Notes: generated by a model from the letters alone, not told the origin. Shown: positions 1,240 to 28,036, counted from the stretch's first letter. The stretch: 64,000 bases of DNA from Eubacterium maltosivorans (GCF_002441855.2 NZ_CP029487.1:2294001-2358000); one strand, 5' to 3'. Program-made: numbers and translations.

Positions 1240-1257
1240 CACATGTACACACATGTG
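1240..1257. promoter_or_regulatory. Palindromic operator-like site in the leader
   Basis: CACATGT and ACATGTG form a perfect inverted repeat separated by 4 bp, about 10 bp downstream of the predicted transcription start. A regulator bound here would block transcription. The GntR protein encoded at 2828 is a candidate binder, but this is a guess. Confidence 0.4.
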
Positions 1258-1305
1258 CTTACTGAAAAATTATTTATTCAAAAAATGAAGGGATGGTATT
1301 TTAAA

Positions 1306-1938
1306 ATGGCAGATTGGAAAAATTTAACACAGGCAGTTGGAGACTTAGAAGAAGACGATGTAATGGAAATCTTAAATGATTTCGTAGCTACAAATCCTAC
1401 CGAAGCAGAAGCTGAAGAAGCAGTTGCAGCTTGCCAGGCTGGTATGGCTGTTGTTGGTGATTTATTCGAAGAAGGCGAATATTTTGTTGGGGACTTAATT
1501 TTCGCAGGCGAATTATTAACCGAAGCAATCAATGTATTAAAACCAGTATTAGGCAGCGGCGACACAGCAGTTGCTGGCACAATCTTAATCGGTACCGCTC
1601 ACGGCGATTTACATGACATCGGTAAAAATATCTTCAGAAGCATGGCTGAAGCAGCTGGTTTCCAGGTTACTGACTTAGGTATTGACGTAGCAATCGACAC
1701 ATTTGTTGAAAAAGCTAAAGAAATCAAACCGGACATCATCGGTATCAGCGGCGTTTTAACCCTGGCTATCGACTCTATGAAAGAAACTTCAGATGCTCTG
1801 AAAGCAGCTGGCGTAGACTCTAAATTAATCATTGGTGGTAACCCTGTTACTAAAGAAGCCTGCGAATATGTTGGCGCTGATGACTTCACAACAAATGCTG
1901 CTGAAGGCGTTAAGATTTGCCAGGCATGGGTTGGCTGA
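1306..1938 (+). CDS. Methyltransferase corrinoid protein (MtaC/MtbC/MttC family)
   Basis: A 210-residue methyl carrier of the three-component methyltransferase type: a substrate methyltransferase would methylate its Co(I) corrinoid and a second enzyme pass the methyl group to tetrahydrofolate. Residues 1-85 are the helical cap (B12-binding-2) domain; residues about 90-210 the Rossmann B12 domain with GDLHDIGKN, where His103 is the expected lower cobalt ligand, then GISGVLT and IIGGNPV. An upstream in-frame ATG at 1243 lies inside the operator palindrome, so the ATG at 1306, preceded by AAGGGATGG, is chosen. Codon use is strikingly TTA/GAA/GCA-rich, unlike the GC-richer neighbours and like a very highly expressed gene. 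No substrate methyltransferase gene is adjacent. Confidence 0.9.
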   Translation: MADWKNLTQAVGDLEEDDVMEILNDFVATNPTEAEAEEAVAACQAGMAVVGDLFEEGEYFVGDLIFAGELLTEAINVLKPVLGSGDTAVAGTILIGTAHGDLHDIGKNIFRSMAEAAGFQVTDLGIDVAIDTFVEKAKEIKPDIIGISGVLTLAIDSMKETSDALKAAGVDSKLIIGGNPVTKEACEYVGADDFTTNAAEGVKICQAWVG

Positions 1939-2182: not shown

Positions 2183-2824
2183 ATGAAAGAGAGTATTGTA
2201 AGATCAGTAGAAGGGTTGTATGAGCAAAGGACACTAGAGCTGGTAAAAATCGCCGTGCGCAAGGGGTTCACCCCGCTCCAGATTTTAGACTGGCTGCGCA
2301 TTGGCATGGAACGGGTCGGAGATCACTATGAGAAATGTGACTATTTCATCGCAGACCTTATTTTTGCCGGCATTATCTTTCAGGAGGTTATGGATCTTGA
2401 CGAACTGAAAGCGCTGTATGCCATGCCGGCAGTGCCCAGAATGGGTAAAATTGTTGTCGCTTCTGTTTACGGAGACTGCCACGACATTGGAAAAAATATT
2501 TTTGCCTCCTTTGCAACCACAGCAGGCTTTGAAGTCATCGACATTGGCATCGATGTGCCTTCTCCCACTATTCTTGAGAAGGTACAGGAACACAAGCCTG
2601 ATATTATCGGCCTCAGCGGCATGCAGCAGGAAACAACCATCGAAATGAAAAAAATCACCGACGGTCTCGAAGATCTCGGCATAAGAGATCAGATACGTGT
2701 GATGATCGGCGGAGCATGTGTGGATGACGGCGTAACGCATCTCAGTGTGGGCGCAGATTATGGCACAAAGGACGTAACCAAAGCGGTGGAAATATGCAAA
2801 CAATGGATACAGGAGAAAAAGTAA
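2183..2824 (+). CDS. Second methyltransferase corrinoid protein (MtaC/MtbC-like)
   Basis: A 213-residue paralogue of the protein at 1306 with the same two-domain layout: a helical cap (residues 1-80) and a B12-binding Rossmann domain with GDCHDIGKN (His100 as expected cobalt ligand), GLSGMQQ and MIGGACV. Unlike the first copy it uses ordinary codons for this genome, so it is probably expressed at a lower level. It is followed after 3 bp by the GntR regulator and so is likely cotranscribed with it. The pairing suggests either a regulatory role, with the corrinoid protein sensing methylation state, or a methyl carrier whose methyltransferase is encoded elsewhere. No visible Shine-Dalgarno is strong here. 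Confidence 0.88.
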   Translation: MKESIVRSVEGLYEQRTLELVKIAVRKGFTPLQILDWLRIGMERVGDHYEKCDYFIADLIFAGIIFQEVMDLDELKALYAMPAVPRMGKIVVASVYGDCHDIGKNIFASFATTAGFEVIDIGIDVPSPTILEKVQEHKPDIIGLSGMQQETTIEMKKITDGLEDLGIRDQIRVMIGGACVDDGVTHLSVGADYGTKDVTKAVEICKQWIQEKK

Positions 2825-2827
2825 GTC

Positions 2828-3532
2828 ATGGGTGCACCTGAATATATTAAAATTGTCGAAGCGATAAAAAACAAAATAACCAGCCAGGAGCTTGAGCCCG
2901 GGGACGCTATCCAGTCAGAGAACCTTCTCTGCGAGGAATTTAACGTCAGCCGGATGACCGTGCGCAAGGGTCTGGCTGTACTCGTCAATGAGGGCTACAT
3001 CTATTCAATTCCCGGCAAGGGCAATTATGTCTGCGAGCCAGATCTGGACCAGTACATCCTCCATTACAATGAGATGGCGCCTGGAAACGAGCGTGGCGAT
3101 GAAGTCCGCCTGATTGAGGTGAATGTTGTCAAGCCAAGCTATGAGGTTGGCTTTAACCTGGAAATTCCCGAAACCAAGCACGTCATCGTGGTAAAACGTA
3201 TTTTTTTAAAGGATGGTTTCCCCACCGCCTATGATATTAAATACATTCCCTACTACCGTGGGATTCCAATTGTTGAAAAGGAAATCCGCTACGCGACCTT
3301 CCCGGAAATGGTGGCCAAGAAAAATTCAATTTTTGCCATGACCAAAAAGCTTAAAATCCGGGCGGCCATCGCAGAAGACGAAACAGCCAGAAACCTTGAA
3401 ATCCCTGTGGGGATGCCTCTTTTAGTTGTTGAGGAAAAGCTGCTGGATGAAAAGGACAAGCCTATCGGCTGGGGGATGATGTACCTGGCAGGTGAAGACG
3501 CTGGCCTCGAAGCGGTTGCTTCCTTTGATTGA
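2828..3532 (+). CDS. GntR-family transcriptional regulator, HutC/UTRA type
   Basis: A 234-residue regulator. Residues 1-70 are the winged helix-turn-helix with the family hallmarks PGDAIQSENLLCEEFNVSR and the TVRKGLAVLVNEGYIYSIPGKGNYV recognition/wing segment (longer motif at residues 40-65). Residues 90-230 match the UTRA ligand-binding fold typical of the HutC subfamily. It starts 3 bp after the second corrinoid gene; an AGGAG 12 bases upstream of ATG is inside that gene. Likely targets are the palindromes at 1240 and 2154. The ligand is unknown; the context suggests a methylated growth substrate or a product of its metabolism. Confidence 0.88.
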   Translation: MGAPEYIKIVEAIKNKITSQELEPGDAIQSENLLCEEFNVSRMTVRKGLAVLVNEGYIYSIPGKGNYVCEPDLDQYILHYNEMAPGNERGDEVRLIEVNVVKPSYEVGFNLEIPETKHVIVVKRIFLKDGFPTAYDIKYIPYYRGIPIVEKEIRYATFPEMVAKKNSIFAMTKKLKIRAAIAEDETARNLEIPVGMPLLVVEEKLLDEKDKPIGWGMMYLAGEDAGLEAVASFD

Positions 3533-21690: not shown

Positions 21691-21727
21691 AAAAAGCCCG
21701 GTTTTTCAAAAGAAAAACCGGGCTTTT
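21691..21727. terminator. Bidirectional terminator
   Basis: A 14-bp perfect stem AAGCCCGGTTTTTC/GAAAAACCGGGCTT with A/T runs on both sides, shared by the ATPase gene (+) and the UroD operon (-). Confidence 0.9.
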
Positions 21728-21730
21728 TTG

Positions 21731-21877
21731 CTACATCAGTAAAAACATTGCAAAGCTGAAGATCATCTCTTCATTTCCCTGAAAGGCCTCAATGGCATAT
21801 GGAATTGCCTCCTTTGGAATCTCATACTTTTCAATATTCGCTTCATAATCATTATAATATTCGGAATTAATATTCAT
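21731..21877 (-). CDS. 48-residue small protein, copy B, paired with the UroD-like protein
   Basis: Not a recognised family. The frame runs ATG to TAG over 48 codons, is preceded by TTAAGGAGAA that overlaps the stop codon of the UroD-like gene (9-nt gap), and is the last gene of the operon. The protein is acidic, begins MNINSEYYNDYE and ends in a hydrophobic FSFAMFLLM. It aligns without gaps over its whole length with the equally long protein at 25839-25985: 14 of 48 positions are identical (M1, N4, Y7, E16, E19, I20, E23, Y27, Q33, E37, F40, F42, L46, L47), with many conservative changes. Two paralogues in the same position behind two UroD paralogues make a real gene likely. Confidence 0.75.
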   Translation of the reverse strand: MNINSEYYNDYEANIEKYEIPKEAIPYAIEAFQGNEEMIFSFAMFLLM

Positions 21878-21886
21878 TTTTTCTCC

Positions 21887-23038
21887 TTAATAGACGCCAT
21901 ATTCCTTAACAAAATTCAATAACTCTTTATACAGATTTATATCCGCGTCGTTTGCCCGAAGCAGTGATTTGTCTAAACTGAAAATATAATTTCCGCCTGG
22001 CGCCAGCACATCAATTATTTCCTTCGCTTTATCTTTCACCTGCTGCAGTGTACCTGCTTTAAGCAACGACAGAGGATAAAAACCTGTAAGAATAAATTTT
22101 GAACCAAGTTTTTCCTTGAAAAGCTTTGGATCACCAAACTCCGCCATCAGCTGACATCCTTGTGGAAGCTCCTGCATATAGTCAAGGTAGCGTGTAAAAT
22201 CATTTTCCATAAAAATCGAAACAGCTGTATTTGTTTTAACCAGTTCCTCGACCAGCTTTTTAAACGTTGGCCAATAAAAACGTTCAAAATCCTTCTTTTT
22301 AATATAGGTTGCCATATGAAGTGGAATCATACAAGCGCCGCGTACCTCAGGCGTCCCCTTTGCCCCTGTCTTGACCATCAATGGGAGGATCGCTTCACAG
22401 GCTGCTTCAACTTTTTCCGGATTTCTTCGAATATCCATGGACATGCCCGTAAAAGATCGGAGCAGATCTGCAATAAAATCCATAGGCGCATCTGTTTGTG
22501 CAAAAGCGCCGCCAAGATTCGATTTTCCATATTTCAGACAGATTTCATTTTTAGCGGCCCCAATTTTTCCCATTGTCCCATAAAAGCTTGAAAAACCTTT
22601 TGCCAAAGACATAGCGGATTCCGGCCATGGCTTATCGAGCTCTTTATACAGCCTTGGAATGATCTTATCCCATAGGAATTCGTAAGGCGCTTCGATCAAT
22701 GCATCATATTCCCCAGGCTCCATTACAGAAATTTCCGGATGCTGCAAAAAGCCATCGCTCCCCATCTGAAAATGCCTTGCGCCCAGAAGCTTATAAAAAT
22801 GCGGAAACCGTACTGTCGTGACACCAAGGTTATCACTTTCAAAATCTTCTGCGACACGTTCCATGGCCTTTATCAGATAATTAATATCAAACTGGTGAAT
22901 ATTCAGATTGTAGCCTGCATACTCCAGGGCAGCGGCTGCGTCCATGTTCAGATTAATGGGCACACGCTTGGGAATTTTTCCGGAACGCACATCGGTATAA
23001 AGCTGATTTCTTTCAACTGTGTTTTTGTTTATTTCCAT
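21887..23038 (-). CDS. UroD-superfamily protein, copy B (divergent MtaA/CmuA-like)
   Basis: 383 residues of the uroporphyrinogen decarboxylase superfamily, which also contains corrinoid methyltransferases (MtaA, CmuA). It is not a heme-pathway UroD: the N-terminal RQAGRY motif is absent. It also lacks the zinc ligands of MtaA/CmuA: the place of HxC holds SIFMEND (near residue 275) and the C-terminal APGC reads LAPGGNYIF. It shares with copy A the blocks APMDFIADLLRSF, MDIRRNPEKVEAA, IPLHM and YWPTFK. It begins one base after the permease stop (TAG-T-ATG) and is followed by the 48-aa gene. Likely cytoplasmic; substrate unknown. Confidence 0.85.
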   Translation of the reverse strand: MEINKNTVERNQLYTDVRSGKIPKRVPINLNMDAAAALEYAGYNLNIHQFDINYLIKAMERVAEDFESDNLGVTTVRFPHFYKLLGARHFQMGSDGFLQHPEISVMEPGEYDALIEAPYEFLWDKIIPRLYKELDKPWPESAMSLAKGFSSFYGTMGKIGAAKNEICLKYGKSNLGGAFAQTDAPMDFIADLLRSFTGMSMDIRRNPEKVEAACEAILPLMVKTGAKGTPEVRGACMIPLHMATYIKKKDFERFYWPTFKKLVEELVKTNTAVSIFMENDFTRYLDYMQELPQGCQLMAEFGDPKLFKEKLGSKFILTGFYPLSLLKAGTLQQVKDKAKEIIDVLAPGGNYIFSLDKSLLRANDADINLYKELLNFVKEYGVY

Positions 23039-23039
23039 A

Positions 23040-24377
23040 CTAGTCTTTTTCTCCTTCGCCTTCTGTTTTTAATGTCTTGTATTTTGATTTAAAAAATAAA
23101 TATAAGCCTGTTCCTAAAATATAAAGCAGTATTATGACATTTGCCGTTGCCGGATTCCCGGCTAACAGAGCATACACCTGGGTGGACATAATAAGGTATG
23201 TGATGACCACCATCGTCCTGAGTCGCCATTTTGGATAACGTTTCGAATAAACGCTTTGCTTCCATTCTTCTGGATATTTCTCCGGTAATTTCAAAATCCC
23301 TGCCATCGGGATCAATATCGACAAAATCGTCATACCAACCGCAATTTTAGAAACCACCGTTAAATCCATCCCTAAAAGCGCAGGGACGAGCCCCAGAATA
23401 TAGAAAATGGTCGTCAGAATATAGGGAACCTCGTATTTGTTTGTTTTTCCCCAGGCCTTTGGCAGCCATCCATCCTTGCAGGCCTGAATCAAAGAGCTCG
23501 AATACCACACAAAGCTTGAATTTAAAGTAGTGATCAACGCTCCCAGCGCTCCACCAATAATAAAAATACTAAAAAACAGATTATTGGGATATACAATGCG
23601 CGCCGTGACAACCAAAGATTGGTATGCCGCTTCGGCCTGCGGAATCACGCCGCTTGCCACAATGCCGATAAACATATACAGTATCGTCACACCAATGGTC
23701 ACGATATAGATAACCTTTGTTGTCACCTTTTCAGGATTTTTGATCTTCGGTGCAAAATCTGTGATGATATATGCACCACCAACAGCGAAAAACAGAAGCG
23801 AAACCGCAGAGTAAAACCCGCTGAATCCATTTACGAAGAATGCTCTTTGTTCAAAAAAGTCAGGTTCCACCTTTCCAATGCCAAAAATAACAAAGGAGAG
23901 CAGACTGAATACCAAAATGACAAAGAGAATATTCTGCACAATCGCTGCATTTTTTATGCCAAAAAGATTGATGATATAAAACAACGTTAAAACACCTGCC
24001 GCCACCACCTTCATTCCCACTGGATTGTTAAGCGCTGGGATCAGGCTTGCCAGATACTGCGCAATGGATATGCCAAAAATTGCAATCGTGATCCGTCCAA
24101 AAAAGTAGATATATACATATAAGCCACCTGCCTCTTTTGTAATCAGCTCTTTAGAGTAGCTGTACGCAGCGCTCATTCTGGGAAGAACGCTGCTCATAAT
24201 AAAGAGAGGCCGAAAAGAGATCAGAAACAGGACAGCACACAGTGCAAATGCCACAAAAACGCTCCTGCCAGTCATTCCAATGCCGATACCTGTCAGCGTA
24301 ATAATTCCTGATCCTATTGTAAAGCCGGTTGCCATCGTAAGTGTTTCGAAAAAAGAAAGCCTGTTGTCTTTTTTCAT
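23040..24377 (-). CDS. APC-superfamily amino acid/amine permease
   Basis: 445 residues with about 12 hydrophobic segments. The first helix holds TGFTIGSGIITLTGIGIG, the glycine-rich unwound segment typical of APC transporters. No recognisable substrate signature; amino acids, amines and related zwitterions are the family range. GGGAGG precedes the ATG by 7 bases. Third of the co-directional genes counting from the GPH transporter, and overlapping in expression with the downstream UroD-like gene (1-bp gap), so transport and UroD-protein function are presumably linked. Confidence 0.85.
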   Translation of the reverse strand: MKKDNRLSFFETLTMATGFTIGSGIITLTGIGIGMTGRSVFVAFALCAVLFLISFRPLFIMSSVLPRMSAAYSYSKELITKEAGGLYVYIYFFGRITIAIFGISIAQYLASLIPALNNPVGMKVVAAGVLTLFYIINLFGIKNAAIVQNILFVILVFSLLSFVIFGIGKVEPDFFEQRAFFVNGFSGFYSAVSLLFFAVGGAYIITDFAPKIKNPEKVTTKVIYIVTIGVTILYMFIGIVASGVIPQAEAAYQSLVVTARIVYPNNLFFSIFIIGGALGALITTLNSSFVWYSSSLIQACKDGWLPKAWGKTNKYEVPYILTTIFYILGLVPALLGMDLTVVSKIAVGMTILSILIPMAGILKLPEKYPEEWKQSVYSKRYPKWRLRTMVVITYLIMSTQVYALLAGNPATANVIILLYILGTGLYLFFKSKYKTLKTEGEGEKD

Positions 24378-24424
24378 CTGGTAACCTCCCGGCAGATAAG
24401 TCTATTGACTCGCTGCCCCAATTT

Positions 24425-25792
24425 TTAATTGTCAGCTACCTTTCTTTCCGCGATTTCAGCGCGCAATTCCGGTAGTTTTCTTTCATTGACATTATAAAAC
24501 AGCATCGCAATCACAGCGACAAGGCTGACGCCTGCCGGGAAAAACATCGCCAACGATTTTATACCCTCTATTACTTCCGGCGTTGGCTCAACCCCGCTTT
24601 GAAGTCCGATAAGCCCAAGACCAAAGGCTGCTACGCTCGTTGAGAATACCGCCGCAATTTTTATGGAAAGCTGGTAAACACTGAATATAACCGCTCTGGC
24701 ATTGTAGCCTGTCTTCCATTCACTGTAATCAGTGATATCTGCGTACATGGCTGTATTGACAACGTTCGGGAATGCGACTCCCACGTAACCAATACAGGCA
24801 ATAATCAAAACAAGCGTCGCATTGCTGGCGTTAAAGAACATGAGCACCAACGCTGCACAAATCCAGACCATTCCTAAAATATAGGTTTGTTTTTTAGTCA
24901 GCTTTTTGGTGATAAACGGTACAAGCGTTGACCCAATAAGCATGAGAATACTGGTTAAGCCGAAAAATGTTGGAATGATATCCGGATTTTTGACAACATA
25001 GATATAAAAATAAGGGAACATTGCAACAATCAACAGGGTCGTTAATACTCTGCACACATCTGCGACTAAAATGGCCAAAAGCGGACGGTTTGTTACCACC
25101 TGTTTAAACATCTGTGCAACTGTAACTTTTTCGGCCTTACCACCCTTGACTGCAACGCCTGAATCCTTGTAGTCTTTTGTGGCTGCAAAAAGGTTTCCAT
25201 AACCTAAAACGGTCATAAGCCCTAATAGCAAAGCCGTGATAAAAAATCCCTGTACCGTCATTTCCTGAGCGCCGGCAACCAGATAGATTAAAGGCAGTAA
25301 ACACCAGCCAGCCAGAATTTTGCCAATAGAGTTTCCCTGTCCACGGAATGTGGAGAGCTGCACACGCTCCGCCGCATCAACCGTCAGTGTGGAATTTAAG
25401 GATGTGTATCCAATGTATGAAACATTTGTGGCGATACAGAATGCCGCATAAAAAATTGTATAGAGCACAATATAGACGCCCTCTGGCAGTCCTGTCAGGT
25501 TTGCACACATAATTGTGTTGAAAAGAAGTATAAAGAACGAACCAATGAGTATCCATGAACGGTAGCGTCCCCATTTAAAATTGCTTTTCTCAATAATCGG
25601 TCCAAGTATCGGAACACTGATCGTGTCCAAAATACGGCCAAAGGTCATGATAACCCCCGCCTGAACTGGAGAGATTTTCAATACCTCTGTAAAAAAAACC
25701 AGATAATAGGTATTTGAAAATGTAACCATAAAAATAAAACATAAATCTGCAAAGCCATATGAAAATTTTATATAATTACTTAATTTTTTCAT
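24425..25792 (-). CDS. GPH-type MFS sugar/glycoside cation symporter
   Basis: 455 residues with 12 predicted membrane helices. The early segment FGRILDTISVPILGPIIEKSNFKWGRYR (longer motif; key residues Asp-x-x-x-x-P, then KWGRYR before helix 3) is the signature of the glycoside-pentoside-hexuronide:cation symporters, as is DYSEWKTGYNARA in the second half. AGGAGATCGAG precedes the ATG. Family members carry glycosides or uronates, so the operon's substrate may be a glycosidic or methoxylated compound, though the second transporter (APC type) suggests two different solutes. Confidence 0.85.
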   Translation of the reverse strand: MKKLSNYIKFSYGFADLCFIFMVTFSNTYYLVFFTEVLKISPVQAGVIMTFGRILDTISVPILGPIIEKSNFKWGRYRSWILIGSFFILLFNTIMCANLTGLPEGVYIVLYTIFYAAFCIATNVSYIGYTSLNSTLTVDAAERVQLSTFRGQGNSIGKILAGWCLLPLIYLVAGAQEMTVQGFFITALLLGLMTVLGYGNLFAATKDYKDSGVAVKGGKAEKVTVAQMFKQVVTNRPLLAILVADVCRVLTTLLIVAMFPYFYIYVVKNPDIIPTFFGLTSILMLIGSTLVPFITKKLTKKQTYILGMVWICAALVLMFFNASNATLVLIIACIGYVGVAFPNVVNTAMYADITDYSEWKTGYNARAVIFSVYQLSIKIAAVFSTSVAAFGLGLIGLQSGVEPTPEVIEGIKSLAMFFPAGVSLVAVIAMLFYNVNERKLPELRAEIAERKVADN

Positions 25793-25838
25793 CTCGATCT
25801 CCTCATCTTGCCTATCATAGCGTATAAAATCCGTTTGT

Positions 25839-25985
25839 TCATATTAACAGTTTGATGATAAACCCAAACAGTTTCTCCTGGGATACCTGCCAGTAAGGCT
25901 CAAGATAGCTGTTTTCCTCATAGTCTATTTCATTTTGTTCACAATACTCTTTCCAGGTTACCAGATATTTTGTATTTTCGTCCAT
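25839..25985 (-). CDS. 48-residue small protein, copy A, paired with the UroD-like protein
   Basis: Unrecognised. ATG-to-TGA frame of exactly 48 codons with an AGGAGGGA that overlaps the TAG of the preceding UroD-like gene (11-nt gap). Begins MDENTKYLVTWKEY, is rich in Glu/Tyr/Trp and ends LFGFIIKLLI. It matches copy B at 21731 in length and at 14 of 48 aligned positions without gaps. The strict pairing with UroD-like genes suggests a subunit, activator or stability partner of those proteins; no function can be assigned. Confidence 0.75.
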   Translation of the reverse strand: MDENTKYLVTWKEYCEQNEIDYEENSYLEPYWQVSQEKLFGFIIKLLI

Positions 25986-25996
25986 TGCCTTCCCTC

Positions 25997-27154
25997 CTAA
26001 TATTTTCCGTAGGATTCTACAAATTCATACAGCGCCCTTACATTTTCTGGTGTTCCGTCATTTGGATAGGTAATCCCTTTAGCAACAGTAAATATATAAC
26101 CTCCGCCCGGCGCCAGAACATCCATTAATTTTTTGGCTTCATCAATGACTTTTTCTTTTGTACCATACTGAAGCAATGACACATCATAACCGGCTGTAAT
26201 ACACATGGTCTTACCCAGCTTGTCTTTAGCCAGCTGCGGGTCCATATATTCAAAGGCTCCAAGAATATGCCCCTTTGGAAGATCCTGAAGATAGTCATAA
26301 TAACGCGTCCAGTCACCTTCAAAATAAATACGCATATACTGGCCTCTTGCCGCCATGCGCTCTACCATTTCTTTAAAAGTCGGCCACCAAAGCTTTGCAA
26401 AATCTTTTTCCCGCATAAAAACAGGCATATGAAGTGGAATGCTGATAAGCTTCCCTTTTACCGCAGGCAGCTGGGCTGCTAACCGGTCCATCAGCGGTAA
26501 TACGGCTTCGGCTGCTGCCGCAACTTTTTCCGGGCACCTCCGAATATCCATCGTAATTTCTGAAAACCCGCGAATCATATCCGAAATATAATCCATCGGC
26601 GCTTCAACCAGCCCTGCTCCTGTCAAGGGAAGACCATATTTTTTGCTGACACGTCCCGCTTCCATCAAAATCGGGGTTGTCATATCGGTCTGTATATTCA
26701 TCGCGCGGACAAGCGACATCCCATAACCAGCCCCCTCTGAATCCAAAGCTTTGTAGACTCTCGGCAAAACCTTATCCACAATAAATCCAAATGGGTTTTT
26801 TATAAAATCATCATACTCCGAACGATCCATACAGCTGACTTCTGGATGCTGCATAATTCCAGTTTTACTTTCAGTAAAATTAATTGATTTCAACGATTTG
26901 TAAAACAACGGATTTCTTGAAAACAATGACGGGCATGTGTCTGTCGCAAAATCCTGCGCAATTTTCTCCATTGCCTCTCCCATTATCTTTGGATCTACCG
27001 CACTTCCCTTGATAGGATAACCAGCATAGTCAATCGCCCAATATTCGCCAAACCGCGTTTCATGAGGAACCCTGTCCGGCTGTTCTAAATCGACGGCCTG
27101 AATATACCTCTTTTCTCTTTCTTCATACAACTGATCCACGTTTTTATTCACCAT
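25997..27154 (-). CDS. UroD-superfamily protein, copy A (divergent MtaA/CmuA-like)
   Basis: 385 residues, first gene of the operon, paralogous to the protein at 21887 throughout (shared APMDYISDMIRGF, MDIRRCPEKVAAA, SIPLHMPVFMREKDF, WPTFKEMVE). At the position of the MtaA/CmuA zinc motif HxC it has YFEGDW (residues 277-282), and at the third ligand APGGGYIF (348-355), so no zinc site is evident. The heme-pathway RQAGRY motif is missing as well. CAGGAGGGG lies just before the ATG. A role in corrinoid- or methyl-group chemistry is suggested by family, but the missing metal ligands leave the reaction open. Confidence 0.87.
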   Translation of the reverse strand: MVNKNVDQLYEEREKRYIQAVDLEQPDRVPHETRFGEYWAIDYAGYPIKGSAVDPKIMGEAMEKIAQDFATDTCPSLFSRNPLFYKSLKSINFTESKTGIMQHPEVSCMDRSEYDDFIKNPFGFIVDKVLPRVYKALDSEGAGYGMSLVRAMNIQTDMTTPILMEAGRVSKKYGLPLTGAGLVEAPMDYISDMIRGFSEITMDIRRCPEKVAAAAEAVLPLMDRLAAQLPAVKGKLISIPLHMPVFMREKDFAKLWWPTFKEMVERMAARGQYMRIYFEGDWTRYYDYLQDLPKGHILGAFEYMDPQLAKDKLGKTMCITAGYDVSLLQYGTKEKVIDEAKKLMDVLAPGGGYIFTVAKGITYPNDGTPENVRALYEFVESYGKY

Positions 27155-27204: not shown

Positions 27205-27233
27205 ATAATATAATGAATTCGTTTTCTTGTCAA
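27205..27233 (-). promoter_or_regulatory. Promoter of the UroD operon
   Basis: On the minus strand, TTGACA (27228-27233), exact 17-bp spacer, TATTAT (27205-27210). Near consensus, consistent with a repressor-controlled promoter. Confidence 0.8.
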
Positions 27234-27355: not shown

Positions 27356-28036
27356 ATGGATAAATACAGAAATACAGATGACGGACAAAGAGAAAACATT
27401 TTATATACAGCAAAATCGCTTTTATTGGAACTGGGATACCGTAAAACAACCATTGCATTAATTGCTGAAAAAGCAGGTGTTTCGGTTGGTTTAGTGAATT
27501 ATTATTTCAAAAAAGAAGAAATTGTAGGACAGATATTTCACGACTTCATTCTTTATATTCGTCTTTTTTTAAATAAAAAGCTCGGCTCTATGATTGAGAA
27601 CCAGTTTCAAATGCACATATTATTTAATCGTATTTTTTTCATCAAAATTTTTGAGACCCCTGCTGCTTTAGAGCTATATAGCATACTCCGTGACAAAGAG
27701 CTTTACCTGGATGTTAGCCACGATTATATTCGAAGCTCCATGTCTGCCATTATCCTGGAATTTGATCTTGATATAGAGCCAAAAATGTTTAGGAAGCTGA
27801 CCATTGCTGAGTATGGCGCCCGAAAAGCACTTTATCAGGATATCTATAATTCTCCAAACAAGGAAATTTCCATAGATTTCACGGACTTTTTATCAACTAT
27901 TTCTGTCCGGCTAGCTGGTGTTACCCCTGAGATCATTGATAAGAATATAAAACACTGTAATAAGCTTATGCGCTATATTGATCTTGACAACATTCATTTT
28001 GAAGATGACTTTCATTCTCTTGATGAAACGCCATAA
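27356..28036 (+). CDS. TetR-family transcriptional regulator
   Basis: 226 residues. The N-terminal helix-turn-helix is typical: ILYTAKSLLLELGYRKTTIALIAEKAGVSVGLVNYYFKKEE (longer motif; residues 15-55) with the GLVNYYFKKEEI recognition end. The C-terminal ligand domain is not assignable. It is divergent from the UroD operon and AT-rich like it, and the palindrome at 27179 is the natural target. AAAGGA precedes the ATG by 7 bases. Probably a repressor released by the operon's substrate. Confidence 0.9.
   Translation: MDKYRNTDDGQRENILYTAKSLLLELGYRKTTIALIAEKAGVSVGLVNYYFKKEEIVGQIFHDFILYIRLFLNKKLGSMIENQFQMHILFNRIFFIKIFETPAALELYSILRDKELYLDVSHDYIRSSMSAIILEFDLDIEPKMFRKLTIAEYGARKALYQDIYNSPNKEISIDFTDFLSTISVRLAGVTPEIIDKNIKHCNKLMRYIDLDNIHFEDDFHSLDETP

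Follow-up and report, generated by a model that had tools for sequence, protein, structure and literature searches.

Acetogens of gut and sediment demethylate methylated compounds anaerobically through methyltransferase I (MTI) enzymes, the substrates of which are mostly unknown. One such enzyme is CdmB (PDB 9rui, 9rul, 9ruo), which serves as MTI in the chloromethane system Cdm of Acetobacterium dehalogenans, a system that includes a methyltransferase II (MTII) related to MtqA (PMC13222342). OdmB, VdmB, MtvB, and MtoB are UroD-type O-demethylases of three-component corrinoid systems (PMC13222342, PMC8630106), and MtaA and MtbA, together with the Mlp proteins (PMC10418091), have the UroD superfamily fold as well. 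In Eubacterium limosum, MtpB, MtcB, and MtyB of the MttB superfamily use a common corrinoid protein, MtqC, and a common MTII, MtqA (PMC8604678, PMC12155760). In this work, we analyze a stretch of 64,000 nucleotides from Eubacterium maltosivorans (GCF_002441855.2, NZ_CP029487.1:2294001-2358000), called the window below, in which one operon encodes two UroD-superfamily proteins, UroD-A and UroD-B, each followed by a small open reading frame (sORF-A and sORF-B) for a protein of 48 residues. We consider it likely, with a probability of roughly 0.75, that in one large branch of UroD-fold MTIs, which feeds a shared corrinoid protein, these small proteins serve as a structural subunit.

Small genes paired with UroD-like genes

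The operon is read on the minus strand from position 27154 to 21731, in the order UroD-A, sORF-A, GPH symporter, APC permease, UroD-B, and sORF-B. This order in one operon had been put forward in the original prediction; direct reading agrees with it, as do Pfam and NCBIfam on the protein classes. Equally accurate was its description of the small genes, each with 48 codons, a ribosome site overlapping the preceding stop codon, a gap of 9-11 bp, and 14 of 48 residues shared. The gaps measure 11 nt for sORF-A and 9 nt for sORF-B, and both Shine-Dalgarno sequences overlap the UroD stop codon (ATTAGGAGGGAAGGCA-ATG and TATTAAGGAGAAAAA-ATG, respectively). The 14 identities in the ungapped alignment compare with a mean of 3.5 besides Met in shuffled sequences (P ~5e-5). 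That the resemblance exceeds chance is also indicated by orthologues: between sister species, the ratio of non-synonymous to synonymous substitution rates (dN/dS) comes to 0.051 in the small part, from 56.5 non-synonymous and 191.5 synonymous differences, and to 0.034 in the UroD core, while sORF-B and its orthologue in genome G002 are separated by 14 synonymous and 0 non-synonymous changes. The ratio is thus not near 1, the value which the original prediction had set against its own proposal, and indicates purifying selection. Neither small protein matched a Pfam or NCBIfam family, 62 members of the small-protein family compared with Pfam, NCBIfam, and PDB sequences gave nothing significant, and Foldseek found no match for the small protein alone. 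A literature search, with most subscription journals and all supplements outside its reach, returned no description of a small protein accompanying UroD-type methyltransferases. Judged by their sequences, both overlooked genes are real and part of a large, undescribed family of tiny proteins.

The pairing has no exception within the genome of E. maltosivorans. A search with PF01208 found 19 UroD-like genes, and a profile of the subfamily found 22 members at E <1e-120, plus weak matches to canonical UroD genes. All 22 members have the small partner: in 19 it is a separate open reading frame (ORF) with a ribosome site, starting 8-47 nt past the UroD stop codon, and in three (L031, L034, and L038) it is fused at the C-terminus. 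As a control, 183 other genes were sampled in the same regions; six precede an ORF of comparable size with a ribosome site, none of these ORFs being similar to the small-partner family. Inspection by eye likewise revealed no family-like ORF downstream of the UroD genes L001, L002, L003, and L005 of this genome.

Beyond this genome, we classified 263 distinct cores from many clostridia, a biased sample in that loci were picked by UroD similarity and the first query was a fused member. Among close members (core E <1e-100, not at a contig edge), 209 of 211 have the partner (122 separate, 87 fused, and two neither), and one profile recognizes 203 of the 209 small parts at E <0.01. The profile search downstream of UroD-like genes that had been suggested as a check thus reveals a conserved partner, and the view of the small protein as an obligate partner of this UroD subfamily holds both here and elsewhere. 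The small part is characterized by the motif [ST]KYY-x-TW[ED]-x-Y ... MQ-x-YEEMMF-x-F-x-M-x-LLM. Separate ORFs, with a median length of 48 amino acids (aa), typically begin 12 nt past the UroD stop. Distant members, found mainly in G329, a relative of the same order, are usually followed by an ORF as well, 36-50 aa long and hydrophobic at its end, but of a different type of sequence. The divergent types seen in G329 (loci L247-L266, L197, and L221-L245) include MRERDIYKLVERYV...SFMNV and MEFTIDEVIAEL...WTLFGL, and at L253, a distant member scored as partner-less, an ORF overlaps the stop codon.

Core and small part have diverged together. Their distances are correlated across the 19 pairs of the genome (Mantel r 0.77, with 0 of 10000 permutations as high) and across 117 pairs (r 0.86), as joint inheritance of each pair would predict. 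On a quick maximum-likelihood tree of 144 cores, the fused state requires three changes, of which at least two are forced by well-supported branches; by this tree, the small domain has been fused to UroD at least twice independently. The lineage of L088, L100, and L221, in which fusion is nested among separate-ORF members, seems to represent a separate fusion event. Two sister branches, L153 (Formimonas, with a separate ORF of 58 aa) and L049 (with a fused extension), resemble each other at the C-terminus, where both show a pattern with many A, Y, and W residues; this may be a third partner type that underwent a fusion of its own.

The origin of the two copies in the window is different from the one initially proposed, in which the pair of UroD and small gene was duplicated as a unit inside the operon. 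UroD-A and UroD-B are 40% identical and fall in separate clades: UroD-A groups with the copy in a second cassette (L024, 3.815-3.820 Mb), and the B lineage belongs to a different well-supported clade of the 22-member family. The second cassette consists of TetR, UroD-A, sORF, GPH, UroD-B, and sORF, without the APC permease, and is 52% (TetR), 84% (UroD-A), 56% (GPH), and 77% (UroD-B) identical to the first. The duplicated unit is therefore this whole cassette and not a pair inside one operon.

Nature and predicted structure of the UroD-like proteins

Both UroD-A and UroD-B exceed the gathering cut-off of PF01208 (23.9 bits; scores in Table 1), below which some other members of the subfamily score. 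They do not reach the equivalog cut-off of HemE (TIGR01464; 19.3 and 20.1 bits against 302.95). UroD-B obtains only 13 to 16 bits from the MtaA/MtbA/CmuA families, whose cut-offs range from 235 to 600 bits, and the only match of UroD-A among coenzyme M methyltransferase families is NF004889 (18.8 bits against 244). Neither translation contains the H-x-C zinc motif known from S-methyltransferases. What the window proteins share with MtaA and MtbA is the fold, the Methanosarcina methyltransferase 4ay7 being among the fold matches, while family scores and motif set them apart. The nearest solved structure is CdmB (E 3.9e-34 for UroD-A and 1.4e-27 for UroD-B).

In Desulfosporosinus, Anaerovirgula, Thermincola, Formimonas, and others, genes of the subfamily adjoin those for a corrinoid protein and a pterin-binding MTII, a common order being MTII, corrinoid protein, UroD, and small ORF. 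Among members with upstream sequence, the gene immediately upstream encodes a corrinoid protein in 33 of 113 separate-type cases and in 8 of 84 fused ones; of the 46 named loci of the separate type, 28 have an MTII gene in the examined flank, and an MTII-type gene lies directly downstream of the fused A. dehalogenans member L154. The window operon itself has no adjacent corrinoid or MTII gene. Because the genes of relatives lie beside these components, and the nearest solved protein is CdmB, UroD-A and UroD-B are most likely MTIs of a corrinoid system and not HemE-type decarboxylases. The original label, UroD, was correct as to the superfamily; it missed the MTI type of the enzymes and their candidate corrinoid partner elsewhere in the window (CP1, Table 1).

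CdmB is likewise an MTI of the UroD superfamily, and a search with the window family's profile matches CdmB from end to end (positions 2-384, E 1e-61). In contrast to that family, CdmB has neither a fused domain nor a small ORF, and its core comprises 419 residues, the median of the small-partner family being 385. It branches (as L159) outside the small-partner clade, a placement made unsure by its long end branch (1.3), and no small ORF was seen at the loci of its relatives either. We considered that the small protein might replace a CdmB-type insertion, as partner-less cores are ~27-34 residues longer, with the insertion mostly after residue 136; this idea is weak because the insertion sits elsewhere in CdmB itself. 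OdmB, VdmB, MtvB, and MtoB, compared by description, share the superfamily, and the Mto system shares the presence of MFS transporters. Outside the clade, no UroD-superfamily gene resolved in A. dehalogenans, a species that contains OdmB and VdmB, is followed by a small ORF (three loci being unresolved), and most products of these genes are shorter, at ~325-380 aa.

An AlphaFold2 model was obtained for L069, a fused protein of Eubacterium callanderi (457 aa) whose gene is 98% identical to its counterpart in the window genome. The mean predicted local distance difference test score (pLDDT) is 96.1, with core and C-terminal domain predicted at equal confidence. Residues 1-389 match UroD structures (Z ~23, 3.9 A over 316 residues), and the remainder lies outside the UroD fold; the predicted template modeling score (pTM) of 0.94 indicates that this extra domain holds a defined place on the TIM barrel. 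sORF-A modeled alone forms two helices with less certainty than in the fused model (pLDDT 84, pTM 0.53). Three residues, H244, E281, and E303 in the numbering of the fused model, are invariant in 76 full-length members and are candidates for substrate or metal contacts; in the profile alignment, CdmB differs at the positions of H244 and E281.

A possible shared corrinoid protein and rival explanations

Apart from the operon, the window encodes two corrinoid (B12-binding) proteins in tandem, CP1 and CP2. No methyltransferase gene stands alongside, and a GntR-type regulator follows (2828-3532). CP1 is 70% identical to the MTI-adjacent corrinoid protein of Anaerovirgula L079, and the next corrinoid protein of the genome is 46% identical. 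Where small-partner MTIs (separate type 1 or fused) have an adjacent corrinoid protein, it is CP1-like in 40 of 41 cases, with 61-76% identity; rows L295 and L300 of this comparison both correspond to CP1. CP1 is present as a single copy per Eubacterium genome, and its 212 aligned residues are identical in four such genomes, which carry 22-29 MTIs each. G329, with 55 subfamily genes (MTIs) in a 3.2 Mb genome, has only two CP1-like proteins. Across the order, such a protein occurs in 35 of 35 genomes with MTIs and in 7 of 32 without them. The best MTII match in the genome (59%, G000:C1:2499625-2500437) adjoins, by eye, genes for formate-tetrahydrofolate ligase and, divergently, for a [2Fe-2S] activase-like protein. 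In PMC8604678, MtqA/RamQ have this same setting of formate-tetrahydrofolate ligase and activase neighborhood, and MtqC is clustered with another corrinoid protein; the CP1/CP2 pair fits that locus by description, not by sequence. MtpB, MtcB, and MtyB belong to a different MTI superfamily, and the portions of the reports available to us mention no small partner, yet they provide a precedent in the same genus for several substrate-specific MTIs served by one corrinoid protein and one MTII. From such gene comparisons, some 22 methyltransferases may depend on one corrinoid hub, CP1, a hub-and-spoke design that can be tested.

We propose that each MTI gene is translated together with its partner, a subunit of about 36-51 aa with an N-terminal Y-Y-x-T-W-E-x-Y motif and then a C-terminal amphipathic helix, which would dock on the TIM barrel like the fused C-terminal domain. 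The complex would bind the methylated compound imported by the transporter of the cluster and pass the methyl group to Co(I) of the corrinoid protein, from which an MtqA-type MTII would move it to tetrahydrofolate and thus into the Wood-Ljungdahl pathway. In Eubacterium, where most MTIs have no adjacent corrinoid gene, the common orphan CP1 and an MtqA-type MTII would probably take these roles. As almost every member of the branch has a small protein beside it or as a fused domain, this UroD-type enzyme class probably has a missing subunit. Among the roles listed in the original prediction (subunit, activator, or substrate-channel plug), that of a subunit is best supported, by pairing, selection, co-divergence, and fusion. 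We can only speculate that the cavity for the substrate or the face for corrinoid docking is incomplete without the small protein. A broader view, to which we assign somewhat less than even odds, is that the whole branch, expanded to 22-29 members in each Eubacterium genome and to 55 in one relative, consists of two-subunit enzymes whose fast-evolving micro-protein was missed by annotation; all copies would use one or two shared corrinoid proteins, and the small subunit would make substrate-specific enzymes interchangeable modules of one methyl-uptake hub. If a subunit is indeed involved, a "UroD" gene expressed alone in a heterologous host could yield an inactive or unstable enzyme, while supplying the small partner together with the appropriate corrinoid protein (CP1) would make dozens of orphan enzymes directly assayable. 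The family would also offer a clean natural example of a gene fusion exposing a subunit.

Several observations weigh against a subunit. The corrinoid protein encoded beside CdmB is itself CP1-like (G019:C52:7760-8383, 76%), yet CdmB has no small partner; hence, the partner is not needed merely to recognize a CP1-type corrinoid protein, and the idea that it is required for such recognition is weakened. L234, L240, and a four-gene branch in G329 have apparently lost the small partner. Beyond the main clade, the small ORFs share length, position, and hydrophobic end, with no recognizable likeness in sequence. Finally, a search for the docking site by mean-field direct coupling analysis (204 paired sequences, effective number 95) gave couplings above those of shuffled pairs; being scattered over hub columns near gaps, they reflect phylogeny, and the interface was not localized.

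The CdmB case also bears on the alternative that the small protein is a transient activator, a chaperone, or a corrinoid-docking adaptor instead of a permanent subunit. A common adaptor would suit both the single type of corrinoid protein beside partner MTIs (40 of 41) and the apparent use of one corrinoid protein by many Eubacterium MTIs. We nevertheless find it unlikely, given the repeated stable fusion in cis, the co-divergence of each partner one-to-one with its own UroD and not as one adaptor per genome, and the absence of a partner from CdmB despite its CP1-like neighbor (PMC13222342). Substrate channeling by a hydrophobic C-terminal helix that anchors the enzyme at the membrane or at the transporter encoded in its operon has only a slim chance of being correct: the C-terminus F-x-F-x-M-x-L-L-M is conserved and many clusters contain a transporter, but the hydrophobic end, at only ~12 residues, is shorter than expected of a membrane-spanning helix, in many operons of the family the MTI goes with MTII and a corrinoid protein, and the model places the fused domain confidently on a soluble barrel.

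A slimmer chance still is left for the view that the UroD-like proteins, instead of being methyltransferases, are decarboxylases or TIM-barrel enzymes of another kind that have a small subunit. Their scores far below the MtbA and MtaA/CmuA cut-offs and the lack of a corrinoid gene in the window operon would agree with it; the corrinoid protein and pterin-binding MTII in the operons of close relatives, CdmB as the nearest solved relative, and scores as far below the HemE cut-off (19-20 against 303 bits) would not. That the small ORFs are not expressed as proteins, and represent chance frames, an RNA element, or what is left of a former C-terminal extension of UroD, is a notion we practically dismiss. 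Their shortness and the lack of a Pfam or NCBIfam match would agree with it; against it stand a dN/dS of 0.05, ribosome sites of their own, homologues in cis and in trans across clostridia, and a frequency of 22/22 against 6/183 in the control.

Features of the window and other clusters of the subfamily

Table 1. Positions of the operon genes, corrinoid protein genes, and putative control elements in the window.
Feature	Position	Strand	Basis or remark
CP1, orphan corrinoid (B12-binding) protein	1243..1938	+	PF02607 and PF02310
CP2, second corrinoid protein, in tandem with CP1	2183..2824	+	PF02607 and PF02310
Intrinsic-terminator-like hairpin directly 3' of sORF-B	21692..21729	-	direct reading, aaaaagcccggtttttcaaaagaaaaaccgggctttttt
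sORF-B, small partner protein, 48 aa, last gene of the operon	21731..21877	-	direct reading; profile match; substitution pattern
UroD-B, probable MTI-type methyltransferase, 383 aa	21887..23038	-	PF01208, 44.9 bits; CdmB match
APC-type permease	23040..24377	-	PF13520, 140.5 bits; not in second cassette copy
GPH (MFS_2) cation symporter	24425..25792	-	TIGR00792, 255.7 bits (cut-off 231.35)
sORF-A, small partner protein, 48 aa	25839..25985	-	direct reading; family profile match, E 4.1e-19; purifying selection
UroD-A, probable MTI-type methyltransferase of the UroD superfamily, 385 aa	25997..27154	-	PF01208, 65.0 bits; CdmB nearest solved structure
Promoter-like TTGACA-17-TATTAT upstream of UroD-A	27205..27233	-	top of 17 matches
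TetR-family regulator, divergent from the operon	27356..28036	+	PF00440, 35.7 bits

The hairpin behind sORF-B was seen by direct reading only, and a sequence scan did not flag it. The promoter-like site is suggestive only, since 17.5 matches would be expected in shuffled sequences. A comparison of UroD-A with plasmids gave no match.

A TetR-family regulator is present in most clusters of the subfamily in the genome, as judged by eye from their neighbors. The clusters L024-L038 mostly have TetR regulators of their own and differ, also by eye, chiefly in the transporter (GPH, SLC13-like, APC, EamA-like, or MFS), so that they look like a set of substrate-specific modules. At L030 and L033, clusters of the subfamily are located near genes for an MttB-type methyltransferase and/or corrinoid proteins, and UroD-type and MttB-type systems adjoin each other there.

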